From Ferrimonas sp. YFM (GTDB taxonomy: Bacteria > Pseudomonadota > Gammaproteobacteria > Enterobacterales > Shewanellaceae): a stretch of 64,000 nt of DNA. The position numbers and the translations under genes were made by a program. The first letter of the stretch is position 1. Every line of letters begins with the position of its first letter. Where the stretch lies: the NCBI RefSeq assembly GCF_030296015.1, contig NZ_AP027368.1:2976001-3040000 (forward strand), given 5' to 3'. Of the stretch, positions 28,693 to 36,288 are shown piece by piece. The notes under the pieces were generated by a model that saw only the letters and a program-made list of their open reading frames with translations, ran no database searches and was not told where the DNA came from.

Positions 28693-29217
28693 ATGAGAGC
28701 ACTGACTGGACTGTTTCTGCTGCTGCTTGCCGGCTGTGCCGCCAAGAGCGATGTGGACTATGACCCCGGCTTCGACTTCACCACAGTCAGCCAGGTGCAG
28801 CTGCTGCCCAGTCGCCATCGGGATGAACCCCTGGCGGCCGAGCGCTCGGAGAAGGCGCTCAAAGAGGCCCTGACAGCCACCGGATGGCAACTGGTGGACC
28901 AATCCAGCCACAAGCTTCAAATCAGCCTGTGGCGCGAAACAGAGGCCAATGACTCCGGCTTCTCCATAGGGATCGGCGGTGGTCGCAGCAGTGGCAACAC
29001 CGCCATAGGCGGCAGCGTCTCCATTCCGGTTACCCCCACAGAGGCGGACTACAGGAAGATTCGCCTGGATCTGTTCGACGGCGAGCGCCAGGTGTGGCGT
29101 GCCGCCGACGGCTTCAAGCTCAAGGGCAAGGCGGACGCCCAGTGGCGAGAAGAGCAGACCCGCAAGGTGATGGACAAGCTCCTGAGCCAGCTGCCCGGGG
29201 CTACTCCAGCTCAGTAA
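28693..29217 (+). CDS. DUF4136-like lipoprotein
   Basis: A 174-residue lipoprotein from ATG 28693 (GGAGGGAG upstream): signal peptide with lipobox LAGC (Cys near 15), then VDYDPGFDFTTVSQVQLLP, a typical DUF4136 opening, and a glycine/serine-rich stretch (GIGIGGGRSSGNTAIGGSV, about 91-110). Likely attached to the outer membrane; no enzymatic role known. Its last 17 bases overlap the convergent gene at 29201. Confidence 0.75.
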   Translation: MRALTGLFLLLLAGCAAKSDVDYDPGFDFTTVSQVQLLPSRHRDEPLAAERSEKALKEALTATGWQLVDQSSHKLQISLWRETEANDSGFSIGIGGGRSSGNTAIGGSVSIPVTPTEADYRKIRLDLFDGERQVWRAADGFKLKGKADAQWREEQTRKVMDKLLSQLPGATPAQ

Positions 29218-29737
29218 GCTGCACGGATCTGAACCAGGCGCTGCCCGTGGTCTGGCCTGAATACATGCCCAGCCTCAGGGCAATGGTGACCCAGGTGCGC
29301 TCACCAGTGTCGAACTCCACCTGACGATAACGCCAGCCCAGCGAGCCCAGCATGGGTTCACTGTAGGTAAAGGAACCCAGCTCCGGCAGAGACTCCAGCA
29401 CAGACAAGTTGCCGCCCACATCCAGCGAATCTATGGTGGGGGTGGTCTTCTGCACCCGAATCCAGCCGGAGAGGCGATAACGGGTATTGGGTTTGACCAC
29501 CACCACTTGCTGCCATCGGGCATCGTTGGGAATCTGCGGATCGATGTGGATGGAAACGGTCTTCTGAGCCTGGGACCAAGCGTACTCAACCCCCTCCTGC
29601 TTGAAGGAGCTTGTGGACCAACCCGTCGGCACTCCTATTTCAAACTTCGGATTTTCAACAAGATTTTCTTGCGCACTCGCGGCTGGCGCGATCAGTGACC
29701 CCGCCACTATCGCGATGGCTATTCCTCTGAAGATCAT
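29201..29737 (-). CDS. secreted carbohydrate-binding-module-like protein
   Basis: A 178-residue secreted protein: signal peptide 1-22 (cut near ASAQ), then NLVENPKFEIGVPTGW, a pattern typical of CBM4/9-type or other jelly-roll domains, and RWQQVVVVKPNTRYRLSGWIRV and WRYRQVEFDTGERTWVTIALRLGMYSGQTTGSAWF, where the last block is the usual closing strand set. No catalytic domain is attached. It may bind glycans outside the cell; the ligand is unknown. It overlaps the convergent lipoprotein gene by 17 bases. Confidence 0.65.
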   Translation of the reverse strand: MIFRGIAIAIVAGSLIAPAASAQENLVENPKFEIGVPTGWSTSSFKQEGVEYAWSQAQKTVSIHIDPQIPNDARWQQVVVVKPNTRYRLSGWIRVQKTTPTIDSLDVGGNLSVLESLPELGSFTYSEPMLGSLGWRYRQVEFDTGERTWVTIALRLGMYSGQTTGSAWFRSVQLTELE

Positions 29738-29886
29738 GGTGTCTACTCCCAGTCTGAAAAGTCGAAATCAAAGCCTGTCGACAGGACGAACGAGAAACCA
29801 GATTCAGTGTAGGACAGACACGACAAATCCACACAAAGAGTGCGGCAATCAGAGGCAAAGACAAGAGAAAAGGAGAGAGAAGAAAG

Positions 29887-29962
29887 TGGTGGGTCGTGAA
29901 GGATTCGAACCTTCGACCAATTGGTTAAAAGCCAACTGCTCTACCAGCTGAGCTAACGACCC
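29887..29962 (-). tRNA. tRNA-Lys(UUU), array copy 9 (last transcribed)
   Basis: 76-base tRNA with CCA encoded, acceptor GGGTCGT/ACGACCC, anticodon loop CTTTTAA giving UUU, T-loop GGTTCGAATCC. Nearest the 3' end of the array transcript. Confidence 0.95.
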
Positions 29963-29997
29963 ACTTTTTGGTTTTCATCCCCAGACGGGGAAGAAAG

Positions 29998-30073
29998 TGG
30001 TGGGTCGTGAAGGATTCGAACCTTCGACCAATTGGTTAAAAGCCAACTGCTCTACCAGCTGAGCTAACGACCC
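29998..30073 (-). tRNA. tRNA-Lys(UUU), array copy 8
   Basis: Same 76-base sequence as the other copies, CCA encoded; exactly 111 bases from its neighbours. Confidence 0.95.
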
Positions 30074-30108
30074 ACTTTTTGGTTTTCATCCCCAGGCGGA
30101 GAAGAAAG

Positions 30109-30184
30109 TGGTGGGTCGTGAAGGATTCGAACCTTCGACCAATTGGTTAAAAGCCAACTGCTCTACCAGCTGAGCTAACGACCC
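30109..30184 (-). tRNA. tRNA-Lys(UUU), array copy 7
   Basis: Same 76-base sequence, CCA encoded; bordered on its left by a type B spacer (GGCGGAG). Confidence 0.95.
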
Positions 30185-30219
30185 ACTTTTTGGTTTTCAT
30201 CCCCAGACGGGGAAGAAAG

Positions 30220-30295
30220 TGGTGGGTCGTGAAGGATTCGAACCTTCGACCAATTGGTTAAAAGCCAACTGCTCTACCAGCTGAGCTAACGACCC
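30220..30295 (-). tRNA. tRNA-Lys(UUU), array copy 6
   Basis: Same 76-base sequence, CCA encoded; type A spacers on both sides. Confidence 0.95.
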
Positions 30296-30330
30296 ACTTT
30301 TTGGTTTTCATCCCCAGACGGGGAAGAAAG

Positions 30331-30406
30331 TGGTGGGTCGTGAAGGATTCGAACCTTCGACCAATTGGTTAAAAGCCAACTGCTCTACCAGCTGAGCTAA
30401 CGACCC
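30331..30406 (-). tRNA. tRNA-Lys(UUU), array copy 5
   Basis: Same 76-base sequence, CCA encoded; central copy of the array. Confidence 0.95.
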
Positions 30407-30441
30407 ACTTTTTGGTTTTCATCCCCAGGCGGAGAAGAAAG

Positions 30442-30517
30442 TGGTGGGTCGTGAAGGATTCGAACCTTCGACCAATTGGTTAAAAGCCAACTGCTCTACC
30501 AGCTGAGCTAACGACCC
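30442..30517 (-). tRNA. tRNA-Lys(UUU), array copy 4
   Basis: Same 76-base sequence, CCA encoded; bordered on its left by the second type B spacer. Confidence 0.95.
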
Positions 30518-30552
30518 ACTTTTTGGTTTTCATCCCCAGACGGGGAAGAAAG

Positions 30553-30628
30553 TGGTGGGTCGTGAAGGATTCGAACCTTCGACCAATTGGTTAAAAGCCA
30601 ACTGCTCTACCAGCTGAGCTAACGACCC
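30553..30628 (-). tRNA. tRNA-Lys(UUU), array copy 3
   Basis: Same 76-base sequence, CCA encoded. Confidence 0.95.
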
Positions 30629-30663
30629 ACTTTTTGGTTTTCATCCCCAGACGGGGAAGAAAG

Positions 30664-30739
30664 TGGTGGGTCGTGAAGGATTCGAACCTTCGACCAATTG
30701 GTTAAAAGCCAACTGCTCTACCAGCTGAGCTAACGACCC
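30664..30739 (-). tRNA. tRNA-Lys(UUU), array copy 2
   Basis: Same 76-base sequence, CCA encoded; separated from copy 1 by the unique type C spacer (GACGGAG). Confidence 0.95.
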
Positions 30740-30774
30740 ACTTTTTGGTTTTCATCCCCAGACGGAGAAGAAAG

Positions 30775-30850
30775 TGGTGGGTCGTGAAGGATTCGAACCT
30801 TCGACCAATTGGTTAAAAGCCAACTGCTCTACCAGCTGAGCTAACGACCC
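30775..30850 (-). tRNA. tRNA-Lys(UUU), array copy 1 (promoter-proximal)
   Basis: Same 76-base sequence, CCA encoded; first copy after the promoter at 30891-30918. Confidence 0.95.
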
Positions 30851-30879
30851 ACTTTTGTCTTCCGAGGACTCCCTCATCC

Positions 30880-30918
30880 GACGGGCGGCTATAATACCAA
30901 TTTCGCCTTGGTGTGCAA
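30880..30918 (-). promoter_or_regulatory. sigma70 promoter of the tRNA-Lys array with GC-rich discriminator
   Basis: On the minus strand: TTGCAC (30918-30913), 16-base spacer, TATTAT (30896-30891), then AGCCGCCCGTC, a GC-rich discriminator as in stringently controlled stable-RNA promoters. No other promoter of this quality is seen near the array. Confidence 0.75.
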
Positions 30919-31005: not shown

Positions 31006-31782
31006 TTAGCCTTTTGACAACTCTTTTTTCGCCAACTGAGCGGCGTTAGAGTTGCCATATTCTTTCACTACCCGGTTGAAATAACCTTGGGCACCCGCCT
31101 TGTCTCCGGCGTCGGCGGCGATCATCCCCAGCTTCAGCAGGGAGTCGGCTCGCTTGGCGGAGTCGGGGTAGCTGTTCACCACGGTTTCAAACGCGGTTTT
31201 GGCCTGGGCCATCTCACCCTTGTTATACAGCAGTTGACCCAACCAGTAGTGGGAGTTGGCAGTATAGGTGGACTGAGGGTAGTTTTCGATGAACTGACGG
31301 AAGGCGGGAATCGCCTCATCGTACTTGCGCTGCTTCAGCACCAGGTCCACCGCCTGCTGATAGGCATCGGCCTCAGACAGGGAGAGGTTGGGCACAGTGG
31401 CAGGCACCGGGCTGCCAGCCTGGGGCGTGGTCGCCTGAGGCTGCGCTGGGGCACCACTCTTAAACTGCTCTTCGATGCGGCTCAGTTCCTGGTACATCTG
31501 ACGCTGGCGTTCCACCATCTGCTGTACTTGGTACTGCTGGCTCTCCACCTGACCACGCAGCTGGGACACTTCCATCTGCAGTTGATCAAACATCTGCTGC
31601 ATGTGCAGCTGAGCCTGGTTACGCGCCTTCATCAACCGCTCCAGGCGGGTGACGCGGGAGTTGATATCGTCCCCAGAGAGGGACTGAGGGGCATTTTCAG
31701 CTGCTTCTATAACGGGAGCGGGCGCAGCCTGAAGCTGCGCCCCCATGAATAGAAGAGCTGTTGCAATAACAGCTTTCTTCAT
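31006..31782 (-). CDS. cpoB: cell division coordinator CpoB (YbgF)
   Basis: A 258-residue periplasmic protein that links Tol-Pal to PBP1B-LpoB during cell constriction. Signal peptide 1-19, N-terminal trimerising coiled coil about 42-107 (RVTRLERLMKARNQAQLHMQ onward), a Pro/Ala-rich linker, then TPR repeats from about 138 (YQQAVDLVLKQRKYDEAIPAF, SHYWLGQLLYNKGEMAQAKTAF, ADSLLKLGMIAADAGD). It is the last gene of the tol-pal operon; 17 bases separate it from pal. Confidence 0.93.
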   Translation of the reverse strand: MKKAVIATALLFMGAQLQAAPAPVIEAAENAPQSLSGDDINSRVTRLERLMKARNQAQLHMQQMFDQLQMEVSQLRGQVESQQYQVQQMVERQRQMYQELSRIEEQFKSGAPAQPQATTPQAGSPVPATVPNLSLSEADAYQQAVDLVLKQRKYDEAIPAFRQFIENYPQSTYTANSHYWLGQLLYNKGEMAQAKTAFETVVNSYPDSAKRADSLLKLGMIAADAGDKAGAQGYFNRVVKEYGNSNAAQLAKKELSKG

Positions 31783-31798
31783 AGATTAACCGTTTCGC

Positions 31799-32329
31799 TT
31801 AGTAAACCAGTACGGCACGACGGTTCTTGGCGTGAGCCGCGTCGGTGGCGGAACCGTCCAGAGGCTTCTCTTCACCGTAGGACACTACGGAGATTTGAGA
31901 GGACAGAACACCCAGACCCTGCAGGTAACGGGATACGGCCTTGGCACGACGCTCGCCCAGGGCGATGTTGTACTCAGGGGTACCGCGCTCATCGGCGTGA
32001 CCTTCGATCAGCACCTTAACACCTGGGTTTTCAATCAGGTAGTTGGCGTGGGCTTCCAGCAGTTCGCCGTACTTGCCCTGGATGTCGCTGCGGTCAAATT
32101 CGAAGTACAGAATGTGCTCTTTGCGCAGTTCCTGGTACTTCAGACGCTGCTGCTCAGCAGGAGTCAGCACGGGCTCTACGGCACCGGTCTGAACGCCGCT
32201 TTGCGCTTGTTCGTTGGTGGTGTTGCCGGTCTGGGACTGGCTGTCGCTGTCGGAGGTACTGGAACAGGCTGTCAGCGCCAGAGCGGGTACAGCAATCAGC
32301 ATACCTTTGAGGAGGCTATTGAGCTTCAT
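31799..32329 (-). CDS. pal: peptidoglycan-associated lipoprotein Pal
   Basis: A 176-residue outer-membrane lipoprotein. Signal peptide with lipobox LTAC (Cys near 22), Ser/Gln/Thr-rich linker, then the OmpA-like peptidoglycan-binding domain from about 70: HILYFEFDRSDI, VLIEGHADERGTPEYNIALGERRAKAV and ISVVSYGEEKPLDGS, the classic Pal motifs. It anchors the outer membrane to the wall and binds TolB. Placed as expected between tolB and cpoB. Confidence 0.96.
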   Translation of the reverse strand: MKLNSLLKGMLIAVPALALTACSSTSDSDSQSQTGNTTNEQAQSGVQTGAVEPVLTPAEQQRLKYQELRKEHILYFEFDRSDIQGKYGELLEAHANYLIENPGVKVLIEGHADERGTPEYNIALGERRAKAVSRYLQGLGVLSSQISVVSYGEEKPLDGSATDAAHAKNRRAVLVY

Positions 32330-32362
32330 CTATCTTTTCCTTTTAATTCGTTACTTTTCCAA

Positions 32363-33718
32363 TCAAAGATAAGGCGACCAAGAAGGCGCTTTCACACTGC
32401 CCACCTGAGTCGGAATTCTGGCCTTAAAGCGGCCATCCACCGAAACGGCTGCCAACACCTGGCGGCCATTGTGGCTTGTCCCATAAATGATCATTGTGCC
32501 ATTCGGGGCGACACTTGGTGATTCATCCAGGTAAGTTTCCGTCAATACGTCCATAAAGCCGGTCTCCAGCTCCATGCGCGCAATGTGGAACCTGTTGTTG
32601 GTCCTGTTGACCATCACCAAGTAACGACCATCCGGAGTCACGGAACCACCGAGGTTCCACTCCCCCTGGAAGGTCAGACGCTGGATCCTTCCGGTGTCCA
32701 AATATACTCGATAAATCTGCGGTCTACCACCCCGCTCCGAGGTGAATACCAGGGATTTGCCATCGGGATGCCAGCTGGGCTCGGTATCGATGGCGTAGTG
32801 ATTGGTGATGCGCTTCATCTGCTTGGTGGCGATGTCCATCACGTAGATCTCAGGGTTGCCGTCCTTCGACAGGCTCATGGCCATCTTGGTGCCGTCGGGA
32901 GACCAGTTGGGTGAACCGTTGATCCCTTCGAAGCTGGTGAGCCTGTCCCGCTTCTGGGTATAGAGGTCCTGAATGTAGATCTCGGAGCGACCGTTCTCGA
33001 AGGACACGTAAGAGAGCTTACGGCCATCGGGAGACCAGGAGGGCGACATCAGCGGCTCTTTGGAGCGCAGCAACACCTTCTCGTTGTACCCATCATAGTC
33101 GGCCACGCGCAGCTGGAACTTGAACGGGTCGTTGTCTGCCACGGTCACATAGGCGATGCGGGTCAGGAAGGCGCCCTTGATGCCGGTCAGGGCCTCATAC
33201 ACCAGATCGGAGATGCGGTGGCCATATTGACGGAACTGGCTGCCGCGAATCACGGTGTCCCGACCGTCCAGGATGTGGTCCTGGGTCTGCACAAGCTCAC
33301 CATTTTGCAGGCCGCGGCTCTCGCCCCCGGTCATCTGGGCACGCACCAAGTCCACCAGCTCGAAGCTGACCTGATACTGGTCCGGGCCAAACTCGCTGAC
33401 CTTGCCCACCACCACGGCCTCGGCGCCGGTGGCAATCCAGGCCTTGAGATCCAGCTCGGAAGCCTTGGACACCTGACCGGGCATCATGCCCCGGGCGATG
33501 GGGTTGAAGGTGCCGGAACGGCGCAGATCGGAAGAGACCACGTCGGCGATCTGGGCGGGCATCTCGCCCTGCCCTTCCCAAACAAAGGGCACCACGGCGA
33601 TGGGCCGGGCGGCGTCGATCCCCTCGGTAATGACGATCTCAAGAGTGGCTTTCGCCGGCATGCTCACCATGGCCATCAGGGCCAACCATGCCATTGTCAG
33701 TGTTTTTATCAGTCTCAT
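32363..33718 (-). CDS. tolB: Tol-Pal system beta-propeller protein TolB
   Basis: A 451-residue periplasmic protein with signal peptide (1-24, cut after AKA), an N-terminal alpha/beta domain (about 25-165) and a six-bladed propeller with repeats such as [36 protein letters not shown] and [16 protein letters not shown]. It exchanges between TolA and Pal. The gene lies 10 bases after tolA. Confidence 0.96.
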
Positions 33719-33728
33719 CAGCCTGTCG

Positions 33729-34661
33729 CTATTGCTCTGGTTGTACTGTTAGGTTGATATCTTTCAATTTCGCGTAGACATCCGGTTCCTGGGACACGGG
33801 CAGCTTACCCGCGGCGTTGATGGCCGCCTGGGTTACCCGGCACAGGTTGGCGTCCCCACCCAGTGTCTTACTGGAGATGACAAAGCCGTCTGGCGCCAGT
33901 CGGATGTTCACCCGGCACTCCTTGCCGCGCATGCTGGTGTCGGTGCGCAAGTTACGTTGAATCGTCTGACGAATCAACACGGTGTACCGGTCCACCTCGG
34001 ACAGCACCTTCTTGCTGCGCGCCGCCTCGATCTGAGCCTGCTCCGCCGCCAACTGCTCCGCCAGCTCCGCCTCACGGGCTTTGCGGGCGGCCTCCTCGGC
34101 AGCCTTGCGTTTGCGCTCCTCCTCCTTGCGCTTGCGCTCCGCTTCCGCCTTACGCTTACGCTCGTCCTCCTTGCGCTTACGCTCGGCGGCTTCCGCCTTG
34201 GCCTTATCCTCGGCGGCTTTGCGTTCCCGCTCCGCCTTGGCCTTGGCCTGCTCCTCTTTCTTGCGTTGCTCAGCCAGCTTGCGAGCCTGGTCCTGCTCCT
34301 TCTTCTGCTTGAGCTTGGCCTGCTTGGCCGCCTCTTCCGCCTTCTTGATCTCGGCCTCTTTGCGCTTGCGCTCCAGTTCCAGCTTCTTCAGCTTCTCCTG
34401 GGCAGCCCTGGCTTTCCTGTCCTCTTCGGCGCGGCGCTTTCGCTCCGCTTCCGCTTCGGCGGCTTTGGCCTGCTTGATCCGTTCCACCTGCTCCTGCACC
34501 TTGGCCTGATCCACCACCACCGCCTGCACCACAGGGGCGGAGGGCTGGGGGGCAACAGGTTTGGGCTTGCTGGAGAAGTCCACCCCAAGGGCCAGCACAG
34601 CGACCAGGCCAACGTGCGCCAGCAGAGAGACCACAAAGGGGAGTGTCATTTTCTGCTGCAT
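33729..34661 (-). CDS. tolA: cell envelope protein TolA
   Basis: A 310-residue protein with one N-terminal membrane span (about 8-27, [17 protein letters not shown]), a long Lys/Ala/Glu helical domain (about 55-205, [15 protein letters not shown]-like repeats) and a C-terminal globular domain (about 220-310) with [17 protein letters not shown] and a closing NLTVQPEQ. It transmits the energy of TolQR across the periplasm. Shorter than E. coli TolA (421) because the helical domain is reduced. Confidence 0.95.
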
Positions 34662-34664
34662 CGG

Positions 34665-35096
34665 TTACTGCTCCGGCGTCTCGGTCATCAGGCCCACAGA
34701 GGGCACACCGGCCCGCTGCAGACTCACCATAAGTTGAATCACTTCGTCATAGGAGACGCTTCTGTCCCCTTTGACCACCACGGGACGCTGAGGATCCAGC
34801 TGCAGCTCGGCGGCCACCAGGGCGGCCAGCTCATCGAGCATCAGAGGACGGTCATCCTGAACGCTGCCGTTATCGAGGAAGTACTGGCCTTCGCTGGTTA
34901 CCGACGCCACCAGGGGTGGCCGCGAGTCCTTCTTCAGCGGCTCCGCCTCGCCCTGGGGCAGGTCCACCTTCACCCCCTGGGAGATGATGGGAGCGGTGGC
35001 CATAAAGATGATCAGCAGCACCAGCATCACGTCGATGTAGGGCACCACGTTGATCTCCGCCACCTTACGGCGTCGTTTACGCTGGTACCCCTGCAT
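34665..35096 (-). CDS. tolR: Tol-Pal motor protein TolR
   Basis: A 143-residue ExbD/TolR-type protein: cytoplasmic basic head (YQRKRRRKVAEINVVPYIDVM), one membrane span about 19-38 with the essential Asp in the VPYIDVMLVLLIIF segment, and a periplasmic domain. It works with TolQ as a proton-driven motor. Its start codon overlaps the tolQ stop by one base. Confidence 0.95.
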   Translation of the reverse strand: MQGYQRKRRRKVAEINVVPYIDVMLVLLIIFMATAPIISQGVKVDLPQGEAEPLKKDSRPPLVASVTSEGQYFLDNGSVQDDRPLMLDELAALVAAELQLDPQRPVVVKGDRSVSYDEVIQLMVSLQRAGVPSVGLMTETPEQ

Positions 35097-35782
35097 CAGC
35101 GCGCTTCCTTATCGTGGAACGCCTGACGGTGCAGGATGCTGGAGAACTCCTCGATGAAGTTGATGTAGGTGTTCTCCAGTTTTTCCACCTTGGTGGAGTA
35201 GCGGTTGAAGAACAGCACCGCGGGGATGGCGGCAAACAGGCCCATGGCGGTGGCGATCAGGGCCTCGGCGATGCCCGGAGCCACCATGTTGAGGGTGGCA
35301 TTCTGCACCTGACCCAGGGCGATAAAGGCGTTCATGATCCCCCACACTGTACCGAACAGGCCGATGTAGGGACTGGTGGAACCGATGGAGGCCAGCAGAG
35401 ACAGGTTGGACTCCAGTTTGTCCACCTCCCGGGAGAGGGCGACGCGCATCGCCCTGTGGGTACCGTCCATGATGGCGCCGCCGCTGCTGGCGGTCTGGGA
35501 CAGACGCATGTACTCCTTGAAACCGGCACTGAACAGCAGCTCCATGCCGGAGTTGCGGTCGCCGCGGCCGCTCAGCTCCTGATAGAGGCGGGTCAGATCC
35601 ACCCCGGACCAGAACCTGTCTTCGAACTTACGCGCGTGGGTGGAGGCCTGCTTGATGACGTTGTGACGCTGCAGGATCACCGCCCAACCGGTCACGGAGA
35701 GCATCAGCAACAGCAGCATCACCAGCTTTACCAACAAACTGGCTTCAAGGAAAAGGTTGATAAAGGACATCTCAGCTGACAC
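35096..35782 (-). CDS. tolQ: Tol-Pal motor channel protein TolQ
   Basis: A 228-residue MotA/TolQ/ExbB-type inner-membrane protein with three spans (about 16-37, 132-154, 166-190); SIGSTSPYIGLFGTVWGIMNAF and IAEALIATAMGLFAAIPAVLFFNR are the conserved channel segments. It forms the ring around TolR. Its start overlaps the ybgC stop by eleven bases. Confidence 0.96.
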   Translation of the reverse strand: MSAEMSFINLFLEASLLVKLVMLLLLMLSVTGWAVILQRHNVIKQASTHARKFEDRFWSGVDLTRLYQELSGRGDRNSGMELLFSAGFKEYMRLSQTASSGGAIMDGTHRAMRVALSREVDKLESNLSLLASIGSTSPYIGLFGTVWGIMNAFIALGQVQNATLNMVAPGIAEALIATAMGLFAAIPAVLFFNRYSTKVEKLENTYINFIEEFSSILHRQAFHDKEAR

Positions 35783-36173
35783 GCGCTAACTCCTGCTTAA
35801 TGTGTGACGGGATCGGCCTGGGTTTGAAGGCCTCACTGTCGATGCAAACCACGGTGACCTGGGCCCGGCAATAGCAACAGCCATCGCTGTCTTCGAGGGA
35901 CTGACTGAACACCATGGAGGCGCCGGCCAGCTTGGTTACCTCGGTCACCACGGTCAGAGCCTGGTTGAATCGGGCGGGACGGACAAAGTCGATATTCATG
36001 TTGCGCACCACGAACAGTACGCCGGACTGTGCCAGCTCATCCTGCTCGAAGCCTTTTTCCCGCAACATCTCAGACCGGGCATGTTCGAAGAAGTTCAGGT
36101 AATTGGCGTGGTAGACCACCCCGCCAGCGTCAGTATCGGAATAGTAAACCCGGACGGGCCAGTGAAACGCCAT
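35772..36173 (-). CDS. ybgC: acyl-CoA thioester hydrolase YbgC
   Basis: A 133-residue hotdog-fold thioesterase, first gene of the tol-pal operon. The start MAFHWPVRVYYSDTDAGGVVYHANYL carries the catalytic Asp in the DTDAGGVVYH motif, as in E. coli YbgC. ATG 36173 matches the family length; an in-frame ATG at 36194 is the alternative. It probably acts on acyl-CoA or acyl-ACP in phospholipid metabolism. Confidence 0.93.
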   Translation of the reverse strand: MAFHWPVRVYYSDTDAGGVVYHANYLNFFEHARSEMLREKGFEQDELAQSGVLFVVRNMNIDFVRPARFNQALTVVTEVTKLAGASMVFSQSLEDSDGCCYCRAQVTVVCIDSEAFKPRPIPSHIKQELARVS

Positions 36174-36288
36174 CTCCCTGCCTGTGCCTTGCATCTGGTA
36201 ATTGGAATGACTGGCTACTATACCCCATGGCCCCTGGGGATGGGAGGGTGAAGGGGGGAAGATTGGGTTTCAAAATGCGTCTTGGCGC

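Follow-up and report, generated by a model that had tools for sequence, protein, structure and literature searches.

By sequence and position, an array of nine tRNA-Lys(UUU) genes in Ferrimonas sp. YFM is the Ferrimonas equivalent of the lysT tRNA operon and follows the tol-pal-cpoB operon on its 3′ side. The existence of the array is beyond doubt, and it is an enlarged form of a familiar gene cluster, ordinary in kind, because E. coli and many relatives keep lysine tRNA genes at the same cpoB site. The explanation that best accounts for our observations, and which taken as a whole we consider very probable, is a lysT-type operon that would be read from one promoter into a single precursor, with unequal recombination between its units and growth by a three-gene block. 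A literature search, judged by titles and the beginnings of abstracts, returned no paper on this array.

The array consists of nine identical genes in 111-bp units

The window that we analyzed is a stretch of 64,000 nucleotides (contig NZ_AP027368.1, positions 2,976,001 to 3,040,000 of the forward strand). Using ARAGORN on the window, we found nine tRNA-Lys(ttt) genes on the minus strand, their starts spaced 111 bases apart (29887 to 30775) and the last base at 30850. The Rfam tRNA model gave nine equal matches of 76.5 bits each, and TRF reported a repeat of period 111 with 98% matches over 29879-30856. All nine genes are identical, measure 76 nt and encode the CCA end, and the eight spacers between them are all 35 nt long and fall into three types, designated A, B and C. 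The order of the spacers is A B A A B A A C on the plus strand and thus C A A B A A B A in the direction of transcription. Spacer B differs from A at two bases, and both differences travel together in both B spacers. Spacer C has the base of B at one variable site and that of A at the other, which places it one step from each. A preliminary description made from the letters of the DNA had proposed nine identical tRNA-Lys(UUU) genes, the 111-bp period and this spacer order, and all of these were borne out by ARAGORN, Rfam, TRF and the comparison of spacers.

The features are listed below. Each tRNA gene is identified by ARAGORN and Rfam (gene 9 is also listed for its identity to the other copies) and the spacers by spacer comparison and the fold test, with fold z-scores at the first spacer of each type.

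29829..29845 (-): weak terminator-like hairpin after the last gene (terminator scan, folding)
29887..29962 (-): tRNA-Lys(UUU) gene 9, last transcribed
29963..29997 (-): spacer type A, hairpin-forming, z -2.73
29998..30073 (-): tRNA-Lys(UUU) gene 8
30074..30108 (-): spacer type B, hairpin-forming, z -1.85
30109..30184 (-): tRNA-Lys(UUU) gene 7
30185..30219 (-): spacer type A
30220..30295 (-): tRNA-Lys(UUU) gene 6
30296..30330 (-): spacer type A
30331..30406 (-): tRNA-Lys(UUU) gene 5
30407..30441 (-): spacer type B
30442..30517 (-): tRNA-Lys(UUU) gene 4
30518..30552 (-): spacer type A
30553..30628 (-): tRNA-Lys(UUU) gene 3
30629..30663 (-): spacer type A
30664..30739 (-): tRNA-Lys(UUU) gene 2
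30740..30774 (-): spacer type C, between genes 1 and 2, hairpin-forming, z -2.05
30775..30850 (-): tRNA-Lys(UUU) gene 1, promoter-proximal
30880..30918 (-): putative promoter (conservation)
31006..31782 (-): cpoB (ybgF), directly upstream of the array (TIGR02795, above cut-off)
31799..36194 (-): pal, tolB, tolA, tolR, tolQ and ybgC (NCBIfam equivalogs)

The array follows the tol-pal-cpoB genes in Ferrimonas

The products of ybgC, tolQ, tolR, tolA, tolB, pal and cpoB (seven of seven) each passed the cut-off of one or more NCBIfam equivalogs, and the cpoB product also matched the longer CpoB model NF008068, below the cut-off of that model. The array lies 3′ of ybgC-tolQRAB-pal-cpoB on the same strand, which is the position of a lysT-type operon, and, as in such an operon, it holds multiple tRNA-Lys(UUU) genes that share one sequence. 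Array DNA was matched in all 14 Ferrimonas genomes, that of strain YFM included, and in 13 of the 14 the distance from cpoB down to the first tRNA-Lys is no more than about 200 bases, a count that leaves out the cpoB side of G008 and in which locus L037 stands for G006. CpoB of the window is 74-95% identical to its counterparts at five named Ferrimonas loci.

Two other origins for the array were considered and rejected: a phage or mobile origin, since the neighbors are conserved tol-pal genes, and a recent horizontal gain, since all 14 Ferrimonas genomes have a match.

Two further observations concern the surrounding DNA. Just past the array, a reading frame of 178 aa (29201-29737, minus strand) has a signal-peptide-like start and gave no NCBIfam match at E 1e-5. 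Within tolA, the stretch rich in Lys, Glu, Arg and Ala (34102-34219) contains imperfect repeats of 21-45 bp.

All tRNA-Lys genes found in the genome lie in the array

The genome has 119 matches to the Rfam model RF00005, from a search that scored 150 of 196 first-look candidates and could therefore miss a tRNA. The ARAGORN inventory, which covers 42 stretches around these matches, also came to 119 tRNAs, including nine tRNA-Lys, all with a UUU anticodon and all in the array. A tRNA-Lys pattern search of the same genome returned nine matches. As all nine tRNA-Lys found sit in the array, lysine decoding seems to depend on one locus. No CUU tRNA is present among the 119 tRNAs found in the genome, and the array must therefore serve AAG as well as AAA; the earlier wording, in which changes in the array would alter UUU-lysine decoding capacity, is thus too narrow. 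In 14 reading frames of the window, a small sample, lysine is encoded by 192 AAG and 83 AAA among 5505 codons.

As far as the search reached, these nine genes make up the cell's whole supply of lysine tRNA genes, and their copy number would therefore set the lysine-tRNA dosage. An excerpt of a study on tRNA supply states that the tRNA pool is set more by gene copy number than by regulation (PMC9981150). In E. coli, the lysT unit was reported as deletable only with a complementing plasmid, even though lysV remains (PMC11480407, in part). The other tRNA arrays of the Ferrimonas genome hold seven tRNA-Val, six tRNA-Gly and fourteen Glu/Ala genes. A 14-tRNA Glu(UUC)/Ala(GGC) array in the same genome (L082, G000:C1:1149200-1151600) is built from repeated Glu-Ala units.

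Copy number varies between species

The preliminary description had proposed a comparison of copy number, and running it on related species gave differing counts. Complete arrays are present in six of the 14 Ferrimonas genomes, each from a different species, and contain 9 (strain YFM), 9, 7, 6, 11 and 9 genes. In eight of the 14 genomes a contig ends inside the array, which indicates that the array is hard to assemble, and tRNA-Lys counts from Ferrimonas drafts can consequently be too low. The same contig ends could suggest that the number of copies or the order of spacers reported here is an artefact of a collapsed or over-expanded repeat. We consider this very unlikely, as the window comes from a genome assembled into a single 4.66-Mb contig and the six complete Ferrimonas arrays have unlike spacers and lengths. 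Separately, G007 carries one more tRNA-Lys approximately 16 kb from its array.

For other genera of the order we read 24 stretches downstream of cpoB (L060-L079 and L096-L099), chosen among 100 of the 110 genomes in which CpoB was matched; the choice leaned towards genomes rich in tRNA-Lys, and L066 was shortened by a contig end. At least one tRNA-Lys is present in 22 of the 24, and 15 have a run of at least four tRNA-Lys with no other tRNA between them. With one mismatch allowed, the tRNA-Lys pattern matched in 150 of 248 genomes. Hand counts gave at least six matches in 37 of the 248 and at least nine in two, both Ferrimonas, and all pattern counts are lower bounds given divergent genes and collapsed drafts. 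Together this suggests an array of a common kind whose size lies at the upper end of the range. The initial view that large dedicated lysine tRNA arrays are unusual is not supported as regards kind, and nine copies is a high number.

Growth in three-gene steps is likely

The preliminary description attributed the spacer order to duplication of a 333-bp block of three genes, and two measures support this. The longest exact self-match of the array is 550 nt at a shift of 333, about 2.5 times the longest run at any other multiple of 111 (221, 219, 221, 219 and 217 nt at shifts of 111, 222, 444, 555 and 666). When the eight spacer labels were permuted exactly, agreement at lag 3 at least as good as that observed occurred in 3.6% of orders with C counted as B and in 4.8% with C kept separate (p of about 0.04). 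Growth in steps of a three-gene block is thus likely, if weakly supported, the evidence for the three-gene step being three minority spacers among eight.

With so few informative spacers, and with permutation p values of 0.036-0.048, the period-3 order could instead be chance, in an array that expanded one unit at a time and was altered by gene conversion. Two other Ferrimonas arrays that we tested show no significant period: the spacers of G007 (A B A A B A A A D A), which look similar and come near to period 3, have none beyond shuffling (best-lag p 0.22, or 0.56 with D counted as B), and the alternating, two-step order in G009 gave p 0.13. Single-unit expansion is nonetheless the unlikely reading, given the 550-nt exact run at shift 333, the linkage of the two bases that separate B from A in both B spacers, and the plain multi-gene blocks of relatives. 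In one relative (L077, at the cpoB site), a Met-Val-Lys tRNA block recurs every 384 bp, its spacers being identical across three consecutive blocks, and in another (L094, not at the cpoB site) a Val-Lys pair is repeated every 266 bp. Like the Ferrimonas array, both point to growth by multi-tRNA blocks, and since their blocks hold different tRNAs, the block step is plain in them without recourse to spacer types.

In the history proposed originally, type C arose late by a single-base change in the last spacer. That order is probably reversed. The nearest relative, F. futtsuensis (G005), has a CpoB 95% identical to that of the window, and the readable 13 bases of its first spacer equal type C at both variable sites, although these bases end at a contig edge and could blend several copies. 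A history that starts from C also needs two changes, as opposed to three for the order proposed originally. For these two reasons, type C is probably older than B.

Concerted evolution of the array

Within each Ferrimonas array that we read the tRNA genes are identical, with the exception of one variant in G002. Mean spacer identity is 0.74-0.99 within species versus 0.54 between eight species, so that copies are more alike within than between species, as concerted evolution predicts. The exception is the closest pair, G002 and G012, whose spacer identity of 0.76 exceeds the within-array mean of G003 (0.74). Copy number also differs between close relatives, compared at the level of species (6 to 11 genes). 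In both G003 (seven genes) and G012 (nine genes), all copies have one paired change in the acceptor stem in common, C-G to T-A, as expected from homogenization.

The mechanism that we favor for this pattern is unequal homologous recombination between the identical 111-bp units, sometimes several at once, by which an array would grow and shrink. Such recombination would homogenize the tRNAs and spacers within a species and let spacers drift apart between species, and the present array would most likely have grown by three-gene steps along the way. An excerpt from work on tRNA gene sets describes their evolution by duplication as possible (PMC7661048). Whole-unit turnover need not account for everything. 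In G003 the tRNAs are identical and the spacers are as little as 55% alike, and this, together with the G002-G012 spacers being more alike than those within G003, suggests that selection or short gene conversion may also contribute much to keeping the tRNAs identical. The array is a clear natural example of concerted evolution acting on a tRNA dosage array, with the steps recorded in its spacers.

A putative promoter precedes the array

Upstream of gene 1, a 21-base block (TTGGTATTATAGCCGCCCGTC) is invariant in all 12 aligned upstream regions, which represent 12 of the genus's 14 genomes. The block comprises a -10-like hexamer and a GC-rich discriminator, 16 nt after an invariant TTGC. In the window the putative promoter would consist of a -35-like TTGCAC (30918-30913), a 16-nt gap, a -10-like TATTAT (30896-30891) and the discriminator (approximately 30890-30880). 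A consensus promoter scan found none at 30880-30918. A GC-rich discriminator is a hallmark of rRNA and tRNA promoters under stringent control. We hypothesize that one growth-controlled promoter transcribes all nine units as a single precursor.

On the 3′ side of the array, an intrinsic terminator scan found one weak site, the hairpin at 29829..29845, and such sites are no more frequent than in shuffled sequence. When the downstream stretches of strain YFM and five other species were folded, the former alone stood out, with a z-score of -2.68, and the others ranged from -1.65 to +0.92. The stretch before the hairpin is C/U-rich and G-poor, and a Rho-dependent stop after the array would be our guess. 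The precursor would then be cut into single tRNAs, probably by RNase P, by analogy with the E. coli lysT transcript, which RNase P is reported to cut from 3′ to 5′ after terminator removal (PMC11143913, in part).

Spacers of the array tend to form hairpins

A hairpin is present in nearly every Ferrimonas lysine-array spacer, with some covariation in the stem (the eight spacers of strain YFM and loci L042, L043, L044, L045, L048 and L053). For the fold test we used distinct spacers of 15-80 nt from 9 loci of the genus, 20 loci of relatives and 12 other clusters of the YFM genome; E. coli had no spacer within this range. The 36 distinct lysine spacers of other Ferrimonas genomes have a mean fold z of -3.13 (32 of 36 below -1) and those of the YFM array a mean of -2.21 (three of three below -1), as compared with -1.22 for 98 tRNA spacers of relatives (49 below -1) and -1.37 for 28 spacers from the other tRNA clusters of the YFM genome (14 below -1). 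An alignment of 25 spacers from four species has 93.1% of its stem cells paired and a covariation of 0.233, and for each of these values 1 of 500 shuffles did as well. Five cells are changed on both sides (reached by 1 of 500), eight further pair types occur (32 of 500) and two pairs are changed on both sides (124 of 500). These values were obtained with a structure read from the same sequences on which it was tested, and two rows of alignment A1 that seem misaligned at the hairpin were included without adjustment.

These results raise the possibility that every spacer is an RNA element under selection, one that keeps identical neighboring tRNAs apart during folding or guides their processing, a reading that we hold tentatively and that can hold together with the lysT-operon explanation. 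In its favor are the stronger folding of Ferrimonas lysine spacers relative to both comparison sets, the pairing and covariation that shuffles seldom reach, and a report that E. coli RNase E depends on a neighboring structured element, a role that a plain stem-loop can fill; in the same source, a terminator stem-loop could replace the neighboring tRNA (PMC9841416, in part). Several points weigh against it. The count of pairs changed on both sides is readily reached by shuffles, and a structure slid by +2 columns, with 56.6% paired, equals that count (two) and exceeds the count of cells (10 versus 5). Three of the four spacers above z -1 come from one array, that of G009, and a modest folding advantage over shuffles is seen in spacers of other tRNA clusters too. 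The E. coli lysT transcript, moreover, is reported as cut by RNase P (PMC11143913, in part).

The fuller version of this idea strikes us as doubtful: that the 27-77-nt spacers of Ferrimonas lysine arrays each hold a selected hairpin near the CCA end, kept through fast sequence turnover and in species whose spacer sequences differ, which separates neighbors or marks a cutting site. If it were true, the hairpin would keep the acceptor-stem halves of neighboring identical tRNAs from mispairing in the nascent precursor, and selected hairpins would provide a testable rule for the folding and cutting of precursors with many identical tRNAs.

Comparison with known lysine tRNA clusters

The cpoB-linked arrays of other genera share the site of the Ferrimonas array, and in 15 of the 24 stretches they contain runs of 4-8 identical or nearly identical tRNA-Lys. 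They differ from it in having fewer copies and spacers that are mostly longer and less regular. The lysT-type operon that we propose for Ferrimonas has a counterpart in E. coli K-12, where lysT-valT-lysW-valZ-lysY-lysZ-lysQ (NC_000913.3:780554-781652) is located between cpoB and nadA. As in Ferrimonas, this operon lies directly 3′ of pal-cpoB on the tol-pal strand and is made up mainly of identical tRNA-Lys(UUU) genes. Unlike the Ferrimonas array, it has seven genes, including two tRNA-Val, and irregular spacers of 2-149 nt with no single regular unit, and E. coli is reported to have a further lysine tRNA, lysV, outside the operon (PMC11480407, in part). Given that lysT mixes Lys and Val genes across such uneven spacers, the likeness between the two clusters is one of site and content, not of exact layout.
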